This document shows, piece by piece, positions 3,138-12,542 of a DNA stretch of 15,334 bases (position 1 is its first letter; every line of letters begins with the position of its first letter). The position numbers were made by a program, and so were the translations under genes. A model generated the notes under the pieces. It had not been told where the DNA came from, ran no database searches, and worked only from the letters and a program-made list of their open reading frames with translations. The stretch is from NCBI GenBank assembly GCA_022732315.1, contig JAIJUV010000051.1:1-15334 (forward strand). The letters run 5' to 3'. Source of the DNA: Prevotella sp. (GTDB taxonomy: Bacteria > Bacteroidota > Bacteroidia > Bacteroidales > Bacteroidaceae).

Positions 3138-3175
3138 TTATTGATAGAGTTTCTTGTTATTGATAGAGTTTCTTG
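3138..3175 (-). repeat. 19-bp perfect tandem duplication at the end of the fusion gene
   Basis: Two identical 19-base units (3138-3156 and 3157-3175) lie head to tail. On the coding strand each reads as the last codons KLYQ plus the stop. The gene stops in the first unit it reaches, leaving the second as untranslated sequence. Confidence 0.9.
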
Positions 3176-6100
3176 ATTTCTGCTCCCTGATAGTAGTGCA
3201 GCAGGATGGCATCATAGAGATAGCCCTCCTCGCCCATCACGGCAGCACCAATCTGGCAGAGTCCTACTCCGTGTCCCCATCCGGCGCCAATCAGTTCGAA
3301 GCGCTGCGGAACACCGTTTTCATCTGCATCATATTTATCTACCACGAAGGCAGAGCTCAGAAGATGAGAATCGCTCAGGGCACGGCGGATTTCCAGTTCC
3401 TTACCGATGGTGAAGGTCTTCTCGGTTCCGATAATCTGCAGTTTGCTGATGCGGCCGCTCGTTCCTCTTTCCACCGCCTTCATGTCGAGGATGGCACCGA
3501 AGTCCATCTTCAGCTTGTCAGCGATGAGCTGCTGCAGTTTCTCCTGGGTCAGGGTCACCTTCCAGCGATAGAAATCCACGGTCTCCTGGTCGTAATCGTT
3601 CAATACCTCAGAGAGGATTTTCTTATCCTGCGTGTTGCAGAAAGCAGGCGGATTGAAGCGGATCCACTTCTCTGCCTCATCCTCATTGGTAAGATTCGGA
3701 AGAGGAGCATTTTCTGCACCCGATATTCCCAAGGCGATATCCCTCACTGCCGTGAGATAGTTCTTCGGCGTATTCTCCCAGCAGTATTGGAATTCCTCAG
3801 TTACTCCGCCGCAGCATTTCGAGAATCGGGCATCGCAAATCTCGCCGCCATCCAGCAACACCTGGCCACGGGTCAGCCTGATAGCCTCGGCAACATGTGG
3901 CGAGGTTTCCTTCGTGATGCCCTGGTAGCGCTGGCAGTGGTCATCGGCACACACATCAAAGAGGGTATGGTCCTCACGGTCGTACCAGCGAATCAGCGTA
4001 TCCTCCTTCTTGGTGAACGAGAAGAAATTGTTGCCGCTCTCAGCCACCTCTCTGCGCTTCTGCATCTGCGCCAGCAGCCACGAACGCGAAATCACGGCAT
4101 GCGCCTTCAGCAGTTCGAGGCTCGATGTGGCACTCATCTCACTACTGATTACACTCTCCAGATAGCGCTCCACCGGCAGTTCGTTGATAGCATAGATCTT
4201 ATCCGATTCCACCACGAAGCGGAGGGCACCCAGGAAGGTCTGCGTCTCCTTGCGCTCCCAGTGGAAGTTCACGCCGATGGTCACGTCGCTGATAGAGAAC
4301 GAGGCGTCATCGCTCTGCGGATGGAAGGTGAGCTTACTGTAAAGATTGCCGTTCCACATGATGCCGCCCTCGAAGAACTCCACCTCCTGCTCGCCAATCA
4401 CGATTTCGCCCTTAGCCAGATAAGGCTTGTTCAGCGAGAAATGCACCTTCTGGGCACTCACGATGCCCACGGTAACCTCTGGTTCCTCCTCATTATTATA
4501 TAGGGCAGATGTAGCCAGAATGGAATCTTCTGCCTCCTTTGCCACCTTCAGCTTGCTCACGATGCTGTTCATCTTCTCCTGGCTCACTCCGCATTCCTGC
4601 AGCAATGCCTCGGCACGCTCATCGGTCAGTTTTCTGAAATCCTCCTCTCTTGGGGTGATGATGAGTCCCGACATATCCAGGGCTCCAGGCGAAACCATCA
4701 GTTGGGCATCGCCATCAGCAAAGTAAGCCTCCGGACGGTGCTTCTCTCTCGGAATCACCACCGAGATGAATTCATCGCCCTTTCTCCAAGCCACGATATT
4801 CATCATCGGTTCCGTCTCTCCGCCACGCAGCGGCATGGCTCTGTAGAGACGGTGGAAGAGCATCTCGTCGCTCTCCTCACTCTTCGAGATGATGACGAAG
4901 GCAGGAACCACGAAGTCGTGAACCACGGCTATCTTCTCTTCATCGTTCAGCGAGATGACGTCGGTAAGGTTGCGCGAAAGACGCTGCCAGTTGGACTGCA
5001 ACGGCAGGATGCCGCTCGTACCTGCCTGGAAATGAAGATGATCCGGAGCAGAGGCACCGCACTTCGGACCGTTATAGAACACCATCAGTTCGCTGTGAAG
5101 CGAGAGGAAGCGATGCATCTCGCCATAGTTCTGATAGATGGCCTGATACTGATGCTTGCGCGCCGGGATGGTGAAATGCACCGGAAGGATTGGGAACGGA
5201 TTCACCAGCAGATGGAAGTTTTCGTCTATCTGCTGCGACATCTGCTCCTTTGGTCGGTTGCGGTCGCAGAGGAAGCAAGGGCGCTCGCCCAGGGTCTTCT
5301 TGTCTATCTTGGCTCCCGTGCTCACGATGCGGGCAGGGTTCCACTGCAGCTTGACCAACTCCGAGAGCTGACGGGTTTCCACATGCTTCAGGTCACGGAA
5401 GCGATGGCGGGCATCAGCCCATTTCTCCAACTGTCGGTTGAAGAATCTGGAGATGCTGCTGTCTTCCATGATATCCGCCTTACCCTGCATCATCTGCTTG
5501 CGGGCCATCAGTTCCATGGTGCGCAGACGGTCTTTATAGAGATTGTTGGCATTCACCCTGTCGATGCTCAGGGCGGCATCCGAATTGCCTCCCCAGCGAC
5601 GGCAGAGATACAGCTCGTCGTAGATTCTGCCGATGCGATAGCGGCGAGAGAAAGCCAGTCCCAGGGCATAGTCCTCACCATAGCTGGTGTTAGGGAACTG
5701 CATCTGTCTTACCAACGGGGTAAAGAAGGCGCGTGGTGCTCCCAAACCGTTGATACGCAGGGCGTTGTTGCAACCGTTATCCTCAGTCCATTCCTTGTGG
5801 TCGATGAGTCCCGGAGGCAGGGTATTCAGGTCGAAATCGCACATGCGGTAGGCGCCAATCATCATCGCCGCCTTCTGCTCGTAGAAGGCATCCACTATCT
5901 TCTGAAGGGTTTCAGGAGATGAATACAGGTCGTCGCTATCCAGCTGCACGGCGAATTTTCCGCAATAGTCGCTGTTGATGGCTACATTCCAGCAGCCGCC
6001 GATTCCCAAGTCCTTTCTATCAGGAACTATCTGAATCAATCGTGGGGCATGGCTCTGAGCAGCATCTTCCTTCATGCTTTCGGAGATTTCCTCTGCAATC

Positions 6101-6999
6101 TGATCAAGAATCTCTCCGGTTTTATCCGTAGAATGATTGTTCACCACAATCACGTTAAACTTGAAATCCGTTTTCTGCGCCAGGGCACTCTTCACGGCAT
6201 CGGCGATGGTCTTCTCTCGGTTAAACACCGGAATCACCACCGAAGCCTCGTATTCAAACTCCTGTTCGTCGAAATCAGGCAGACGGTAGAAGCTGGTATC
6301 CACCAGGGCACCCACCTTGTTAAGATGCTGGGTACAAGCCTTTTCCATCTCTATCTGCACCTCACGGTTTCTAGGGTTCACATAGTCAAACTGCTTTTCG
6401 CCGCTCTTTCTGTTATCCAGTTCGTTCTCGGTATAGAGGAACTCATTCAGATGGAAAATCTCTCCCACACGGCTCAGATAGAGACGCAGGTCGTAGAGAC
6501 CGGCAAACTGATATTCCTGTCTATCCTGCTGGGCGATATAGTTGCGCAGCGCCTGCGCCTTGACGAGCCAGAGACTTCCGAAATCGAAGTCATCTCGCAA
6601 ACTACCCTGCTGATAATCAATCACAGGATGCTTTTCCAGTTGATTGTCCTTCACCAGCGAATAGTGGTCGGAGTAAACCATCACCGCCGCGGTATCATCC
6701 GCCGTGCGCAGGAAACGCTCCAAGGCATAGAGGCCCCACCTGATAGGGGTGGTCTTGGTGCAGATCATCACGAAGTCGGCATCGGCATTTTCGGCGATGC
6801 TCTCCACGGTGTTGCTACTCTCCAGTCGGTCGATAACCACGAAGGTACAGCCGTCTGGCACCTGGTGGTGGGCAGCGAAATCGGCGCTCACCATCAGGTT
6901 GATATGCTGAACAGTCTTGTTGTCATGAAGTTCTCCGAGTGCTTCTTGGGCCACCTCCAGGTCTTCACATGGCAAGAAAAGGTCTATTTTTTCTCTCAT
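3157..6999 (-). CDS. Fusion protein: GT2 glycosyltransferase, DUF4922 HIT/GalT-like domain, SpoIID/LytB domain
   Basis: A 1280-residue protein without signal peptide or membrane segment, so probably cytoplasmic. Domains in order: residues 1-240, a glycosyltransferase-A-like region with VYSDHYS (108-114) where a DxD motif would sit, probably degenerate; 250-500, a canonical GT2 domain with VVIPVFNRE (254-262), DSDD (354-357) and GEDYALG (441-447); about 515-790, a DUF4922-type HIT/GalT-like domain with CFLC (575-578, likely metal site), [10 protein letters not shown] (600-609) and HLHFQ (654-658), matching the HxHxQ nucleotidyl-transfer motif; about 920-1280, a SpoIID/LytB domain with SSEM (952-955), [10 protein letters not shown] (965-974), a Cys-rich SKCCGG (1060-1065) and [13 protein letters not shown] (1240-1252). 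SpoIID proteins cleave or remodel denuded peptidoglycan, normally outside the cell. It is the first gene of a unit with an AmpG-like permease. Domain calls are firm; the joint reaction is unknown. Confidence 0.85.
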
Positions 7000-7135: not shown

Positions 7136-8209
7136 ATGAATAATGAAAAAAAATATCTTTTGGGCCTTACACTTGCCGAATTGAAGCAGGTAGCTAAGGA
7201 TCTCGGCATGCCTGCCTTCACCGGCGGACAGATGGCGAAGTGGCTCTATGAGCAGCATGTGAAGAGCATTGATGAGATGACCAATATCTCGAAGGCCAAC
7301 CGTGCCAAACTCGCTGCCGAATACGAAATAGGATGCGCAGAATATTCTGACGCACAACATTCTGTGGATGGTACCATCAAGTATCTCTTCCCTACCCGAA
7401 GCGGAAAGTTCGTGGAAACGGTGTATATTCCTGATAAGGACCGCGCCACGCTCTGCGTCTCTTCTCAGGTGGGCTGCAAGATGAACTGCCTCTTCTGCCA
7501 GACCGGAAAGCAGGGATTCGAGGGGAGTTTGCCTGCCGGCGACATCCTGAATCAAATTTACTCGCTGCCTGAGGTGGATAAGCTTACCAACATCGTGTTC
7601 ATGGGACAGGGCGAGCCGATGGATAATCTCGACAATGTGCTTCGTGCCACCGAGATTCTCACCGCCGATTACGGTTGGGCGTGGAGTCCGAAGCGCATCA
7701 CGGTAAGTTCTGTGGGCGTGAAGAACAAGCTGAAGCGATTCCTGGAAGAGAGCGAGTGCCATGTAGCGATTTCGATGCACGACCCTATTCCATCGGAGCG
7801 TGCCGAACTGATGCCTGCCGAAAGGGGCATGAGTATCGAGCAGGTGGTGGAGTTGCTGAAGAACTACGATTTCTCCCATCAGCGCCGCCTGAGTTTCGAG
7901 TACATCGTGTTCAAGGGCGTGAACGACAGCATGCAGCATGCCAAGGCTATCATCAAACTGGTGAAGGGTCTAGATTGCCGTTTCAATCTCATCCGCTTCC
8001 ATCAGATTCCCGACATCCCGTTGCAGGGTGTGAACGACGAGAAGATGGAGCAGTTCCGTGATTACCTCACCCAGCATGGTGTTTTCACCACCATCCGTGC
8101 CAGCCGCGGCCAGGACATCTACGCCGCCTGCGGCTTGCTCAGCACCTCGAAGAAGATTGGAGAAATCCGACAGCACGAGGATGAGGAGCAGAAGCATGGA
8201 AAGGGATAA
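7136..8209 (+). CDS. rlmN: Dual-specificity RNA methyltransferase RlmN
   Basis: A 357-residue radical-SAM enzyme that methylates C2 of adenine 2503 in 23S rRNA and A37 of certain tRNAs. The iron-sulfur cluster motif CxxxCxxC is C114, C118 and C121. The two mechanistic cysteines are present: C107, seven residues before the cluster, and C332 in YAACGLLS, the one that is methylated during the reaction in E. coli. GQGEPMDN (157-164) and SMHDP (213-217) are the usual SAM- and substrate-site blocks. Length is normal. The ATG at 7136 is the only candidate before the conserved KYLLGLTLAELK start and lies five bases after the TATCTTTG box, so its message is probably leaderless or nearly so. Fourteen bases after its stop a tight string of five more genes begins, so rlmN probably heads that operon. 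Confidence 0.97.
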   Translation: MNNEKKYLLGLTLAELKQVAKDLGMPAFTGGQMAKWLYEQHVKSIDEMTNISKANRAKLAAEYEIGCAEYSDAQHSVDGTIKYLFPTRSGKFVETVYIPDKDRATLCVSSQVGCKMNCLFCQTGKQGFEGSLPAGDILNQIYSLPEVDKLTNIVFMGQGEPMDNLDNVLRATEILTADYGWAWSPKRITVSSVGVKNKLKRFLEESECHVAISMHDPIPSERAELMPAERGMSIEQVVELLKNYDFSHQRRLSFEYIVFKGVNDSMQHAKAIIKLVKGLDCRFNLIRFHQIPDIPLQGVNDEKMEQFRDYLTQHGVFTTIRASRGQDIYAACGLLSTSKKIGEIRQHEDEEQKHGKG

Positions 8210-8688: not shown

Positions 8689-9702
8689 ATGAAGCACTCA
8701 TTTGCACGCAGAGCAACAAAGTTGCCTCTCATCAGCCTACTACTCTACATTCTGCTGAGTGGATGCAACAGAGGAAAGGAAAATCAACTGCCCAAAAGCA
8801 CGGGAATGCCTTACGAGGTGGTGCTTGAGGGAGATACCGACAGCATCGTAACCAAGATGCTGACGGAGGATGTGACAGGACTGCCCCAACCCGAACCACT
8901 CTGCCGACTGATTCAGGTGAAAAAGGGCAAGACCCGGGGGAACTATCTGCTCGTCAGAACCCGAATCGTCGTGAATATCGGAGAACGGGATTTCGGAGAA
9001 CAGAATATAGGAGAGCGGGATTTCTCCGTCACACTTCACCACGACGAGAATGCAGCGCCACAGAATATCATTCGCATAACCGCCCAATCGGCACAGCAGT
9101 TGCGGGAAAGGCTTAATGGCGAGAAACTCCGCCACATCGTGGATGAAGTGGAACTGAAACATCTGGCAGATATCATCTCCGGTAACCCCAGCAAACAAAA
9201 CAGGGAGATGCAAGACGAAATCAAAAAGATGTTCGGAATCGACATGAAGATTCCTGCAGCGATGAACGCCAGCAAAAAGGCGAAAGACTTCATCTGGATC
9301 TCGAACAACGCCAGTTCGGGCATGCAGAACCTGCTCGTAATGAAAGTGAAGAGTGAAGAACGAAGAGCAGGAAAAGTGAAGAGTGAAGAACGAAGAATGA
9401 AGAATTCAAATGCTTTTCATGTAAATGACAAGGCTTTGATTGATAGCATTCTCCGAACCAATATGCCGGGTGAAACCGACAGCATGTATATGGTGATTCC
9501 TCATCTCTCAGAAAGAGGACTCTGGGAGATGAAAGGAGATGCCATGGGAGGGCCTTACGTAATGCATCGCATTCATAGGCAAACAAGCCAGGCAGCAAAG
9601 CAAGGCTATAACCTCTACATCATCGCCTTTGTCTATGCACCCGAAATGAAAAAGAAAATATTAATCAAGCAGCTCGAAGCTGCGATTTCTACTATAAAAT
9701 AA
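8689..9702 (+). CDS. DUF4837-type lipoprotein
   Basis: A 337-residue predicted lipoprotein: basic N-terminus, hydrophobic stretch (12-23) and lipobox LSGC with C26 as the lipidated residue. The mature part carries PYEVVLEGD (39-47 region), AAPQNIIRI, a central stretch with IPAAMNASKKAKDFIWIS, and GLWEMKGDAMGGPYVMH near the C-terminus, which match the Bacteroidota DUF4837 family as I remember it. No function is known; neighbouring lptE and secG further along suggest an envelope setting. Two independent 30-base in-frame repeats are present (8974-9024 and 9343-9396), each adding ten residues, at places where relatives would be expected to be shorter. It begins three bases after the second 34-aa gene and ends six bases before the pdxA-like gene, so it is in the same transcript. 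Lipoprotein call strong, family moderate. Confidence 0.8.
   Translation: MKHSFARRATKLPLISLLLYILLSGCNRGKENQLPKSTGMPYEVVLEGDTDSIVTKMLTEDVTGLPQPEPLCRLIQVKKGKTRGNYLLVRTRIVVNIGERDFGEQNIGERDFSVTLHHDENAAPQNIIRITAQSAQQLRERLNGEKLRHIVDEVELKHLADIISGNPSKQNREMQDEIKKMFGIDMKIPAAMNASKKAKDFIWISNNASSGMQNLLVMKVKSEERRAGKVKSEERRMKNSNAFHVNDKALIDSILRTNMPGETDSMYMVIPHLSERGLWEMKGDAMGGPYVMHRIHRQTSQAAKQGYNLYIIAFVYAPEMKKKILIKQLEAAISTIK
8974..9024 (+). repeat. In-frame 30-bp-period repeat in the lipoprotein gene (NIGERDF units)
   Basis: Units 8974-8994 and 9004-9024 are 21 bases long with three mismatches and a 30-base period. They encode NIGERDF twice, separated by GEQ. Confidence 0.85.
9343..9396 (+). repeat. In-frame 30-bp-period repeat in the lipoprotein gene (VKSEERR units)
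   Basis: Identical 24-base units at 9343-9366 and 9373-9396 encode VKSEERR twice. The sequence style (gtgaagagtgaagaacgaag) is like the purine-rich spacer repeats common between genes in Prevotella-type genomes, here held within a coding frame. Confidence 0.85.
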
Positions 9703-9708
9703 AATTTC

Positions 9709-11052
9709 ATGGACAACAAAAGAATCAAAGTGGCTATCACCCACGGCGATACCAATGGTATCGGATATGAACTCATTTTTAAGGCATTCAACGAACCGGA
9801 GATGCTGGAGTATTGCACCCCTATCATCTACGGCTCGCCAAAAGTGGCAGCCTACTATCGCAAGGCGATGAACCTGCCAGCCCAGTTCTCCATCATCCAG
9901 AAAGCTGAAGATGCTGAGGATGGAAGAATCAACCTCCTCGCTGCCGTAGAAGAGGAAGTGAAGGTGGATATGGGTATGCCTACTCCGGAATCAGGAGCAG
10001 CAGCAGTCAAGGCACTCGACCGTGCCATGACCGACTATCGCGACGGTCTCTACGATGTGCTCGTCACTGCCCCGGTAAGCAGTCAGAACATCAAGATTGA
10101 AGGTTACACCTTCGTGGATCACAAAGACTACATCGAAACCTGTCTGGGCGACGGCAGCCATGCCCTGAGCCTGCTCGTAGGCGACGACCTGCGCATTGCC
10201 TCCGTCACCGGCAAGACACCACTCACCCAGGTGGCCAAGTCAATCACCCAGGAAAGCATCGTGGAGAAAACCACCCTGCTCTGGCACACCCTGAAGCGCG
10301 ACTTCCTCCTCACCAACCCACGCATCGCTGTGCTCGCCCTCAACCCAAGCATCAACGAGGAACAGAGCTGCGGCACCGAGGAGCGCAACATCATCATCCC
10401 AGCCATCGATGCACTCGCCGAGAAGGGCATCCAGGCATTCGGTCCTTACCCAGCCGACGATTTCTTCGGCAACGGATACTACAACGAGTTCGATGGCGTC
10501 ATGGCGATGTACCACGACCAGGCAGCCGTACCATTCCACTCCCTCTTCAACGAGGATGGCGTGCTCTATACCGCTGGTCTCCCTATCATCCATACAGCAG
10601 CCAACACCACCCCATGCTACTATATGGCAGGCTACAACGAGGCAGATGCCATCTCGTTCCGCCACGCCATCTTCCTGGCACTCGATGCCTTCCGCCATCG
10701 CGAAACCTGCGAAGAGGCTTACCAGAACCCACTGCCAAAGCTCTACCACGAGAAGCGTGATGAGAGCGAGAAGGTTCGCTTCTCCATCCCAAAGAAGCAC
10801 GTTCCTTCCCCATTCCCTCCAAAGGGCGGAAACAAGCAGAACGGCACCAAGGGAAACAACGAGCAGAATGCCCCTAAGGGAAACAACGGCAATAACAATG
10901 GTGGCAACAATGGTAATGCCAACAACAACGCCCCTCAGCCTGCCCAGCAGACTGATAAAAAGTTGACACAGCAGCCTAATCCTGCCGAAAAACAGGCGCA
11001 GCCAGCTCCTCAGAAGCCAGCAGAACAGCCTGCTCCACAACCAGCAGAATAG
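9709..11052 (+). CDS. PdxA-family protein with degenerate active site and low-complexity tail
   Basis: Residues 1-360 align along their whole length with PdxA, the 4-phosphohydroxy-L-threonine dehydrogenase of vitamin B6 synthesis: THGDTNGIGYE (11-21), LVTAPVS (118-124), LNPSINEEQSCGTEE (211-225), GPYPADDFFG (245-254), AMYHDQ (266-271) and YTAGLP (287-292). Compared with E. coli PdxA (numbering from memory), the metal ligands H166 and H211 are K169 and S214, with only H266 kept as H269. Substrate contacts T137, K274, N283 and R292 become K139, H277, L286 and H295, and the conserved DHG becomes NTT (299-301). The spacing matches exactly, so these are substitutions, not misalignment. Residues 365-447 form an Asn/Gln/Pro/Gly-rich tail. 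Automatic annotation would say pdxA; classical activity looks doubtful. It is the last gene of the rlmN operon and is followed by a terminator. Confidence 0.85.
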   Translation: MDNKRIKVAITHGDTNGIGYELIFKAFNEPEMLEYCTPIIYGSPKVAAYYRKAMNLPAQFSIIQKAEDAEDGRINLLAAVEEEVKVDMGMPTPESGAAAVKALDRAMTDYRDGLYDVLVTAPVSSQNIKIEGYTFVDHKDYIETCLGDGSHALSLLVGDDLRIASVTGKTPLTQVAKSITQESIVEKTTLLWHTLKRDFLLTNPRIAVLALNPSINEEQSCGTEERNIIIPAIDALAEKGIQAFGPYPADDFFGNGYYNEFDGVMAMYHDQAAVPFHSLFNEDGVLYTAGLPIIHTAANTTPCYYMAGYNEADAISFRHAIFLALDAFRHRETCEEAYQNPLPKLYHEKRDESEKVRFSIPKKHVPSPFPPKGGNKQNGTKGNNEQNAPKGNNGNNNGGNNGNANNNAPQPAQQTDKKLTQQPNPAEKQAQPAPQKPAEQPAPQPAE

Positions 11053-11174: not shown

Positions 11175-12542
11175 ATGGATAATTCTGAACTACAGAAAAT
11201 AAAACAACGCTACAATATCGTCGGAAATAGCGACGGATTGAACCGTGCTCTCGATGTCGCCCTACAAGTGGCACCGACCGACCTTTCCGTGCTTATCATC
11301 GGAGAGAGCGGTGTGGGTAAGGAAATCATCCCACGAGTCATTCACGATAACTCGCCGAGAAGACGCGAAAGATATTTCGCCATCAACTGCGGCAGTATCC
11401 CAGAGGGAACTATCGACAGCGAACTCTTCGGTCATGAGAAAGGTTCCTTCACCGGAGCCATCGGCGAAAGCGAAGGATATTTCGGCATCGCCAACAAGGG
11501 TACCATCTTCCTCGACGAGGTGGGTGAACTGCCGATACAGACGCAGGCCCGGCTGCTTCGTGTGCTCGAAACGGGTGAATACATCCGTGTGGGCGGCACC
11601 GAAATCAGAAAGACTGATGTGAGAATTGTGGCAGCCACCAACGTAAACATGCGCAAGGCTGTGAGCGAGGGAAAATTCCGCGAAGACCTCTACTATCGCT
11701 TGAATACCATCCCTATCCAGATGCCTCCGCTGCGTGAACGTGGCAACGACATCCTCCTGCTCTTCCGCCTCTTTGCAATGCAGATGGCTGAGAAATATCG
11801 ATTGCCTAAGATTTCACTCACCGAGGATGCCAAGGCGCTCATGCTGAAATATAAGTGGCCAGGCAACGTGCGACAGCTCAAGAACATCACCGAACAGATG
11901 TCAGTGCTGAGCCGGGAAAGGGAAATCAATCTCGAAACCCTCTCGCAGTTCATCCCAAGAGATGAGGAAACTACCCAGCTCGCCACCATTCCGCAAGCCG
12001 GAAACGAGCAGCATAGCTACGAAAGCGAGCGGGAGATGCTCTACAAGATTCTCTACGAACTCAGGGGCAACGTGAGCGACCTGCGAAGAGAGATGAAATC
12101 GCTGCGCGACCAGCTAGATGAAGCTCGGGGACTCAGCGGAGCCAATGGCTTCAGCCATCCGAAAAACATCTCAGGCATGCCTCCAACCACGGTTTCAGGC
12201 GTACCATCGGTTTCAGGAATGCCAGCACCGGTTTCGGGAATCACATCCCCATCGGTTTCGGGAATGCCTGAACCCCACTACCCTTCCGAATTCGGCAATC
12301 TGCAGGAAGGCAGAATCTATGCCGAACCAAGACGGGATGCCGAGGATATCGAGGCAGAGGAAATCAAGGACATGGAGAATGAGAATGAGAGCGAGAACGA
12401 ATCGCTCAACCTCAATGAACTGAGCCGACAGATGATAGAGCGCGCCCTGGAACGCAACAACGGCAACCGCAAGAAGGCGGCCGAAGAATTGGGCATCTCC
12501 GACAGAACGCTCTACAGAAGAATTAAAAAATACAATTTATGA
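11175..12542 (+). CDS. Sigma-54-dependent Fis-family transcriptional activator
   Basis: A 455-residue bacterial enhancer-binding protein that would use ATP to open sigma-54 RNA polymerase promoters. It has no N-terminal sensor or receiver: the AAA+ domain starts near residue 14, as in PspF. Walker A is GESGVGKE (43-50), the sigma-contacting loop is GSFTGA (90-95) where most members have GAFTGA, Walker B is IFLDEVGEL (111-119), the arginine-finger region is REDLYYRLN (169-177), and WPGNVRQLKN is at 228-237. A linker with a possible coiled coil (about 283-318), a VSGMP-type repeat (332-367) and an acidic stretch (385-412) leads to a Fis-type helix-turn-helix (about 413-453). It heads the operon with lptE, whose ATG overlaps its stop by four bases. 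Control without a sensor domain probably depends on a partner protein or on expression level. Confidence 0.93.
   Translation: MDNSELQKIKQRYNIVGNSDGLNRALDVALQVAPTDLSVLIIGESGVGKEIIPRVIHDNSPRRRERYFAINCGSIPEGTIDSELFGHEKGSFTGAIGESEGYFGIANKGTIFLDEVGELPIQTQARLLRVLETGEYIRVGGTEIRKTDVRIVAATNVNMRKAVSEGKFREDLYYRLNTIPIQMPPLRERGNDILLLFRLFAMQMAEKYRLPKISLTEDAKALMLKYKWPGNVRQLKNITEQMSVLSREREINLETLSQFIPRDEETTQLATIPQAGNEQHSYESEREMLYKILYELRGNVSDLRREMKSLRDQLDEARGLSGANGFSHPKNISGMPPTTVSGVPSVSGMPAPVSGITSPSVSGMPEPHYPSEFGNLQEGRIYAEPRRDAEDIEAEEIKDMENENESENESLNLNELSRQMIERALERNNGNRKKAAEELGISDRTLYRRIKKYNL
12168..12275 (+). repeat. VSGMP-type degenerate repeat in the activator linker
   Basis: Residues 332-367 hold five SG-containing units (ISGMP, VSGVP, VSGMP, VSGIT, VSGMP) with Pro/Ser spacers. 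At DNA level the shared core is ggtttcaggaatgcc and variants. It separates the AAA+ module from the DNA-binding domain. Confidence 0.8.

Follow-up and report, generated by a model that had tools for sequence, protein, structure and literature searches.

The window, by which we mean the whole stretch of 15,334 nucleotides of Prevotella sp. DNA analysed here, contains a gene of the PdxA family behind rlmN and a DUF4837 gene and ahead of a gene for a sigma-54 activator (Table 1). On the reverse strand, positions 3157-6999 encode a protein of 1280 residues that combines a family 2 glycosyltransferase with DUF4922 and a SpoIID domain.

The original prediction described the pdxA product as a PdxA-family protein with almost all catalytic residues replaced. 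The family assignment was confirmed by a profile search, in which the protein, a full-length PdxA, matched PF04166 with 289.9 bits (cut-off 27), and by structure comparison, which revealed the PdxA fold with a match to 1ps6. The score against TIGR00557 was 245.5 bits, below the cut-off of 290.35. The window gene is an orthologue of the PdxA genes of Bacteroidota. The extensive replacement was found as well: seven of the ten active-site positions are changed, including those of the metal ligands H166 and H211 (E. coli numbering), and with K, S and H at its three metal-ligand positions the protein lacks the metal-ligand set of PdxA. Homology to an enzyme combined with loss of catalytic residues, one mark of a pseudoenzyme, is present in this gene. 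The N/P/Q-rich tail comprises about 97 residues; the intact PdxA proteins of loci L006 and L007 are likewise long (429-448 amino acids).

Table 1. Genes of the pdxA locus in the window and parts of the degenerate PdxA protein (positions in the window; residue numbers of the window protein unless assigned to E. coli).
Feature	Position	Strand	Remarks
rlmN, conserved upstream neighbour	7136..8209	+	TIGR00048 350 bits; synteny
DUF4837 gene (PF16125), often immediate neighbour	8689..9702	+	
degenerate pdxA (PdxA-family pseudoenzyme), 447 aa	9709..11052	+	PF04166, fold match to 1ps6
N-terminal block ITHGDTNGIGYE...CTPIIYGSPKVA, residues 10-50	9736..9858	+	retained in degenerate and intact genes alike
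H138 (E. coli H136, kept) and K139 (E. coli T137, replaced)	10120..10125	+	
K169 replacing metal ligand H166	10213..10215	+	
residues 195-207 (LKRDF..PRIA)	10291..10329	+	mostly retained even in the most decayed remnants
S214 replacing metal ligand H211	10348..10350	+	
G245-P246-Y247	10441..10449	+	retained in 4, 6 and 6 of 6 remnants, respectively
H269, equivalent to metal ligand H266	10513..10515	+	kept in the window
H277 replacing substrate residue K274	10537..10539	+	
L286 replacing substrate residue N283	10564..10566	+	
H295 (R292) to T300 (H297)	10591..10608	+	RTSVDH changed to HTAANT
last helix and Bacteroidota-type tail, residues 315-350 (...NPLPKLYHEKR)	10651..10758	+	
low-complexity N/P/Q-rich C-terminal extension	10759..11049	+	pLDDT mostly <50
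sigma-54 activator without N-terminal sensor domain	11175..12542	+	

Close degenerate relatives were present at loci of Segatella copri (L001, 73% identity), of an uncultured Prevotella (L009, 69%, partial) and of Prevotella cerevisiae (L002, 60%). PdxA is degenerate in all three, and all three genomes contain pdxS and lack pdxJ, in agreement with the earlier proposal that the vitamin B6 route is absent or different. By extension from these relatives, the genome of the window itself probably carries pdxS. In the same comparison, PdxA was intact in eleven genomes, all of which had pdxJ and none pdxS, and the fifteenth genome compared (L013) had a degenerate syntenic PdxA and neither pdxS nor pdxJ. 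Substitutions of the kind seen in the window are common to the degenerate PdxA proteins of the relatives, as the orthologue comparison called for by the original prediction revealed. Each of the 120 best homologues listed lacked six to eight of the ten residues (83 lacked six, 26 seven and 11 eight). A broken pdxA confined to one strain was ruled out by these close homologues and by the family survey described below.

The survey covered 199 genomes of the family of S. copri, which is the nearest named relative of the window. Of these, 53 contained pdxS and 142 contained pdxJ; no genome had both genes, and four had neither. The completeness setting was 90, with values not displayed per genome, and single absences may be assembly gaps. 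All 14 pdxS loci that were read, out of 53 pdxS genomes, contained a PdxT motif, and the PdxST route therefore looks complete there. A PF04166 match was present in 48 of the 53 pdxS genomes (best E 1e-46 to 1e-105) and in 141 of the 142 pdxJ genomes (E 1e-103 to 1e-120, with a split match in G110 at 1e-84). The top scores from pdxS genomes overlap the lowest from pdxJ genomes, and two of these top scores (G198, G106) belong to PdxA2-like paralogues. The only pdxJ genome without a PdxA match, G116, is likewise missing rlmN. In G208 (contig C47), pdxJ is split by a stop and was counted as present; the PdxA score is high, and pdxJ may have been lost very recently there, or the assembly may be in error. 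A second PF04166 protein, PdxA2-like and with an intact active site, is encoded elsewhere in G198 (L092:1-10501), G106 (L094:1-10001) and G010 (L144:1-10101). The idea that a paralogue generally accompanies an intact PdxA was rejected, as such a second copy was seen in only these three pdxJ-less genomes.

Across the class, 197 Bacteroidia genomes contained pdxJ in 190 cases, PF04166 in 195 and pdxS in two. Both of the latter were already in the family sample, and the exchange of PdxJ for PdxST thus seems rare outside the family. Five genomes of the class-wide sample (G226, G269, G297, G356, G380) had a strong PdxA score and neither pdxJ nor pdxS, which could be due to assembly gaps or to B6 auxotrophy with retention of PdxA. 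In five others (G270, G303, G332, G357, G360), which have pdxJ, PdxA scored unusually low (E 4e-61 to 9e-76).

The state of the active site followed the presence of pdxJ. We compared 54 degenerate genes, i.e., the window gene and those at the rlmN locus of 53 pdxJ-less genomes (51 from the sample plus G002 and G010), with 51 intact genes that had not been chosen at random (from 44 of the 142 family pdxJ genomes and 7 others); L149, the syntenic gene of G198, was excluded as too diverged. All 51 genes from pdxJ genomes retained all ten active-site residues. At least one was missing in all 54 genes of the other set and at least three in 53 of them, with a range from one (one gene) to ten (one gene) and seven in the window. 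The losses concerned H166 (47 of 54), H211 (42), H136 (41), H297 (38), H266 and N283 (35 each), T137 (29), R292 (24), K274 (19) and D247 (16). The gene with a single loss, L093, lacks N283 only; judging from the residues that they keep, a few proteins of such lineages may remain active.

For the window protein itself, activity as a PdxA whose active site has been re-formed from other His, Lys or Arg residues and whose product feeds an overlooked PdxJ is a most improbable explanation. The residues K169, K139, H277 and H295 would leave some basic groups in the pocket, and one position appears dispensable, since according to the available part of PMC10471632 the H136N exchange in E. coli PdxA raises pyridoxine output and H136 is not essential. 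Against this stand the loss of two of the three metal ligands, the absence of pdxJ from the genomes of L001, L002, L009 and L013, and the fact that the search which detected pdxJ in 142 of 199 genomes detected it in none of the 53 pdxS genomes.

The PdxA state changed several times within the family. The presence or absence of pdxJ was mapped on an RlmN tree of 108 tips, 49 of them with pdxJ and the window scored as without. The mapping required 10 changes, compared to a mean of 36 in 500 label shuffles, and 7 changes remained after nodes with a support below 0.95 had been collapsed. These changes, which come from a single gene tree, carry no direction and may include reversals.

Intact and degenerate pdxA genes share one locus downstream of rlmN, often with the DUF4837 gene in between, and rlmN was present at every degenerate gene of the set used for synteny except L111, which lies on a short contig. 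A tie of DUF4837 to the dead form was rejected: with a home-made profile and counting loci with enough upstream sequence, the gene was found at 32 of 52 loci with a relic and at 32 of 49 canonical ones, and it is therefore not specific to the dead form. Downstream of pdxA the gene content varies. Some lineages have the block of the window, composed of the sigma-54 activator, LptE, TPR and SecG, and others have a gene for an LPG_synthase_TM protein, or one for a nucleotidyltransferase with further genes behind it. In many relatives (L096, L097, L105, L109 and others), the nucleotidyltransferase gene comes directly after pdxA or one gene further on and is followed by a second gene and then by one resembling CDP-alcohol phosphatidyltransferase (only the nucleotidyltransferase was domain-scanned). 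This gene group presumably resembles the Bacteroides inositol-lipid cluster.

A regulatory role of the window PdxA is possible. Its specific form, control in trans of the sigma-54 activator encoded downstream, a protein that lacks its own sensor domain, is suggested by the position of the activator directly after pdxA in the window and in S. copri and by the start of the activator with its AAA+ domain. We nevertheless regard it as very improbable, because many lineages have the LPG_synthase_TM protein or the nucleotidyltransferase next and the pairing is not general; a general link of pdxA to the activator was rejected on the same grounds.

In five pdxS genomes no PF04166 match had been obtained, yet all five contain a diverged open reading frame of 221-283 amino acids at the same place, and total loss of pdxA was therefore rejected for them. 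Together with the syntenic gene of G198, these remnants span 221-284 amino acids and are barely recognisable as PdxA. Two of the five were scanned as proteins; one was just over the Pfam cut-off (29.1 bits) and the other gave no match. The remnants L201 and L202 are tied to PdxA by a C-terminal match that includes the tail.

Selection was estimated by NG86, a simple method, from pairs that were picked by closeness in the tree and overlap each other. The dN/dS values were 0.025-0.161 for degenerate pairs (345 codons, 16 of 18 pairs with finite dS) and 0.019-0.088 for intact pairs (12 of 15 with finite dS); two remnant pairs were looser still, with 0.188 and 0.255. Between the window and S. copri, dN/dS was 0.135 for pdxA and 0.020 for rlmN. 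The purifying constraint on degenerate pdxA is real, and for the window it is looser than that on the neighbouring rlmN. Maintenance of the protein by selection, the other mark of a pseudoenzyme, is thus found too and is weaker in the remnants.

The constraint is unevenly distributed. In 36 non-redundant intact proteins, 95 columns were at least 95% identical; when at least 90% identity in 45 non-redundant degenerate proteins was taken as retention, none of the ten active-site columns and 47 of the 85 others were retained (Fisher p 0.001). The retained columns lie mostly in residues 10-50, 198-212, 224-231 and 245-271 and in the last helix and tail, and 21 have either a different residue in E. 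coli or no counterpart in it. After the last helix, intact and degenerate members of the family have a P-L-x-K tail, and similar tails, in which the lysine is frequently missing, occur in many other Bacteroidota. A count on the alignment columns, made without a pattern, showed D326, R331 and L342 to be identical in all 54 degenerate genes; P341 is identical in 53, R329 in 51, Y346 in 50 and K344 in 49. Each of these residues is written with two to six synonymous codons, which indicates selection at the level of the protein. The last helix and tail also form the best-kept region of the six most decayed genes, with means of 3.15 of 6 for residues 321-340, 2.6 of 6 for residues 341-360 and 0.35-2.2 elsewhere; five of these genes were extracted by a tail pattern, and their tail residues are not independent evidence.

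These data bear on slow, non-adaptive decay, by which a functionless gene would persist in a transcribed operon with rlmN and envelope genes, where frameshifts and deletions would be polar. The operon position of the gene would fit, as would the graded series from one lost residue (L093) down to remnants of 221 amino acids and the rise of dN/dS from canonical to relic pairs and from these to remnant pairs. The further decay in some lineages counts against a retained function. However, selection at the protein level is needed to explain both the dN/dS values over 345 codons (0.025-0.161) and the specific conserved blocks, in which synonymous codons change freely, and none of the PF04166 matches listed (61 genomes searched, 55 with a match) contained an internal stop. 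We therefore consider pure decay unlikely. With substitutions common to the relatives and genes under selection, the results as a whole support the original interpretation of a gene kept for another purpose in an organism with an absent or different B6 route.

Among the purposes named in that interpretation, a pseudoenzyme fits best, and an enzyme for a new substrate fits poorly with the replacements, which depend on the lineage. That the old fold might catalyse another reaction is conceivable, given the changed substrates of PdxA2 and terephthalate dihydrodiol dehydrogenase and the recurrence of H136Q, H166K or N, and H266Y within one clade (L109-L111, L114, L117, L121, L124, L125, L128, L130, L133, L136, L137). 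Yet the 45 non-redundant genes contain eleven residue types at H166 and fourteen at N283, the original ones included. This scatter leaves no common new catalytic set and makes a shared new chemistry unlikely. Moreover, the residues most often lost include two of the three metal ligands, H166 and H211, along with H297. A new enzyme is, in our judgement, quite improbable.

Judging from the sequence comparisons, the degenerate PdxA is probably a pseudoenzyme that was kept for a non-catalytic function after PdxST had replaced PdxJ. In this scenario, the lineage gained PdxST as its route to pyridoxal phosphate and PdxJ was lost, after which the oxidative PdxA reaction would no longer have been needed and the residues of the metal, substrate and NAD sites could have drifted, presumably with loss of activity. 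The protein would have been retained through a second, non-catalytic function, probably one already present in intact PdxA of Bacteroidota. This function would most likely be that of a binding surface formed by the N-terminal strand-helix block, the core strands with Pro-Arg-Ile and Gly-Pro-Tyr, the last helix and the C-terminal tail, and we would guess that the degenerate PdxA may serve as an adaptor or scaffold for a partner.

It is plausible, if not quite probable, that PdxA of Bacteroidota has two jobs in general, with an older or parallel non-catalytic role in the N-terminal block, the core strands and the P-L-x-K tail, and that each exchange of PdxJ for PdxST shed the enzymatic half. Every such exchange would then be a natural separation-of-function experiment, the dead versions would reveal which parts of the protein matter, and a classic B6 enzyme of a dominant group of gut bacteria would carry a second, hidden function. 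The repeated swaps also offer a clean evolutionary test of the fate of an enzyme after pathway replacement. On the practical side, a pdxA annotation in genomes of the Segatella/Prevotella type can mislead with respect to activity and to reconstruction of the B6 pathway; the protein P0044, for example, is named PdxA in nr although six of its ten active-site residues are missing.

The use of PdxTS by some Prevotellaceae is already in print, as the accessible text of PMC4403557 describes it for two of them, and the parts of PMC9997740 and PMC6593275 at hand employ pdxJ and pdxST as markers of the two B6 routes. The former survey, in the same available portion, names the paralogue PdxA2 as a special case, and its main text has no occurrence of Bacteroid- or Prevotella. 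A description of degenerate PdxA was not found in the literature covered, which excludes most subscription journals. For Porphyromonas gingivalis, pdxA is listed as essential in vitro on the basis of transposon data (PMC3547785, available part); this essentiality does not separate B6 supply from a second role.

From the characterized PdxA enzymes, the 4-hydroxythreonine-4-phosphate dehydrogenases of E. coli (1ps6/1ptm) and Legionella (6xmy), the window protein differs by its replaced active-site positions and by the added Bacteroidota tail, and also by the lack of PdxJ in its nearest tested relatives. It also stays far below the threshold for PdxA2 or D-threonate 4-phosphate dehydrogenase (6e85, 2hi1), with 130.1 bits against the equivalog model NF002891, whose cut-off is 583 bits; the paralogues at L092, L094 and L144, at separate loci and with intact active sites, are called PdxA2 by resemblance. 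Terephthalate 1,2-cis-dihydrodiol dehydrogenase (8zhy, 4aty), which was compared by sequence and fold only, has the same fold and 21-23% identity to the window protein, with E 3.1e-12 for the sequence match to 4aty. As dead subunits, the non-catalytic isocitrate dehydrogenase subunits, yeast IDH1 and human IDH3 beta and gamma, can be likened to the degenerate PdxA. Those subunits pair with an active paralogue; the degenerate PdxA proteins differ from them in this respect, since a second PF04166 protein accompanies them in only three of the pdxJ-less genomes read.
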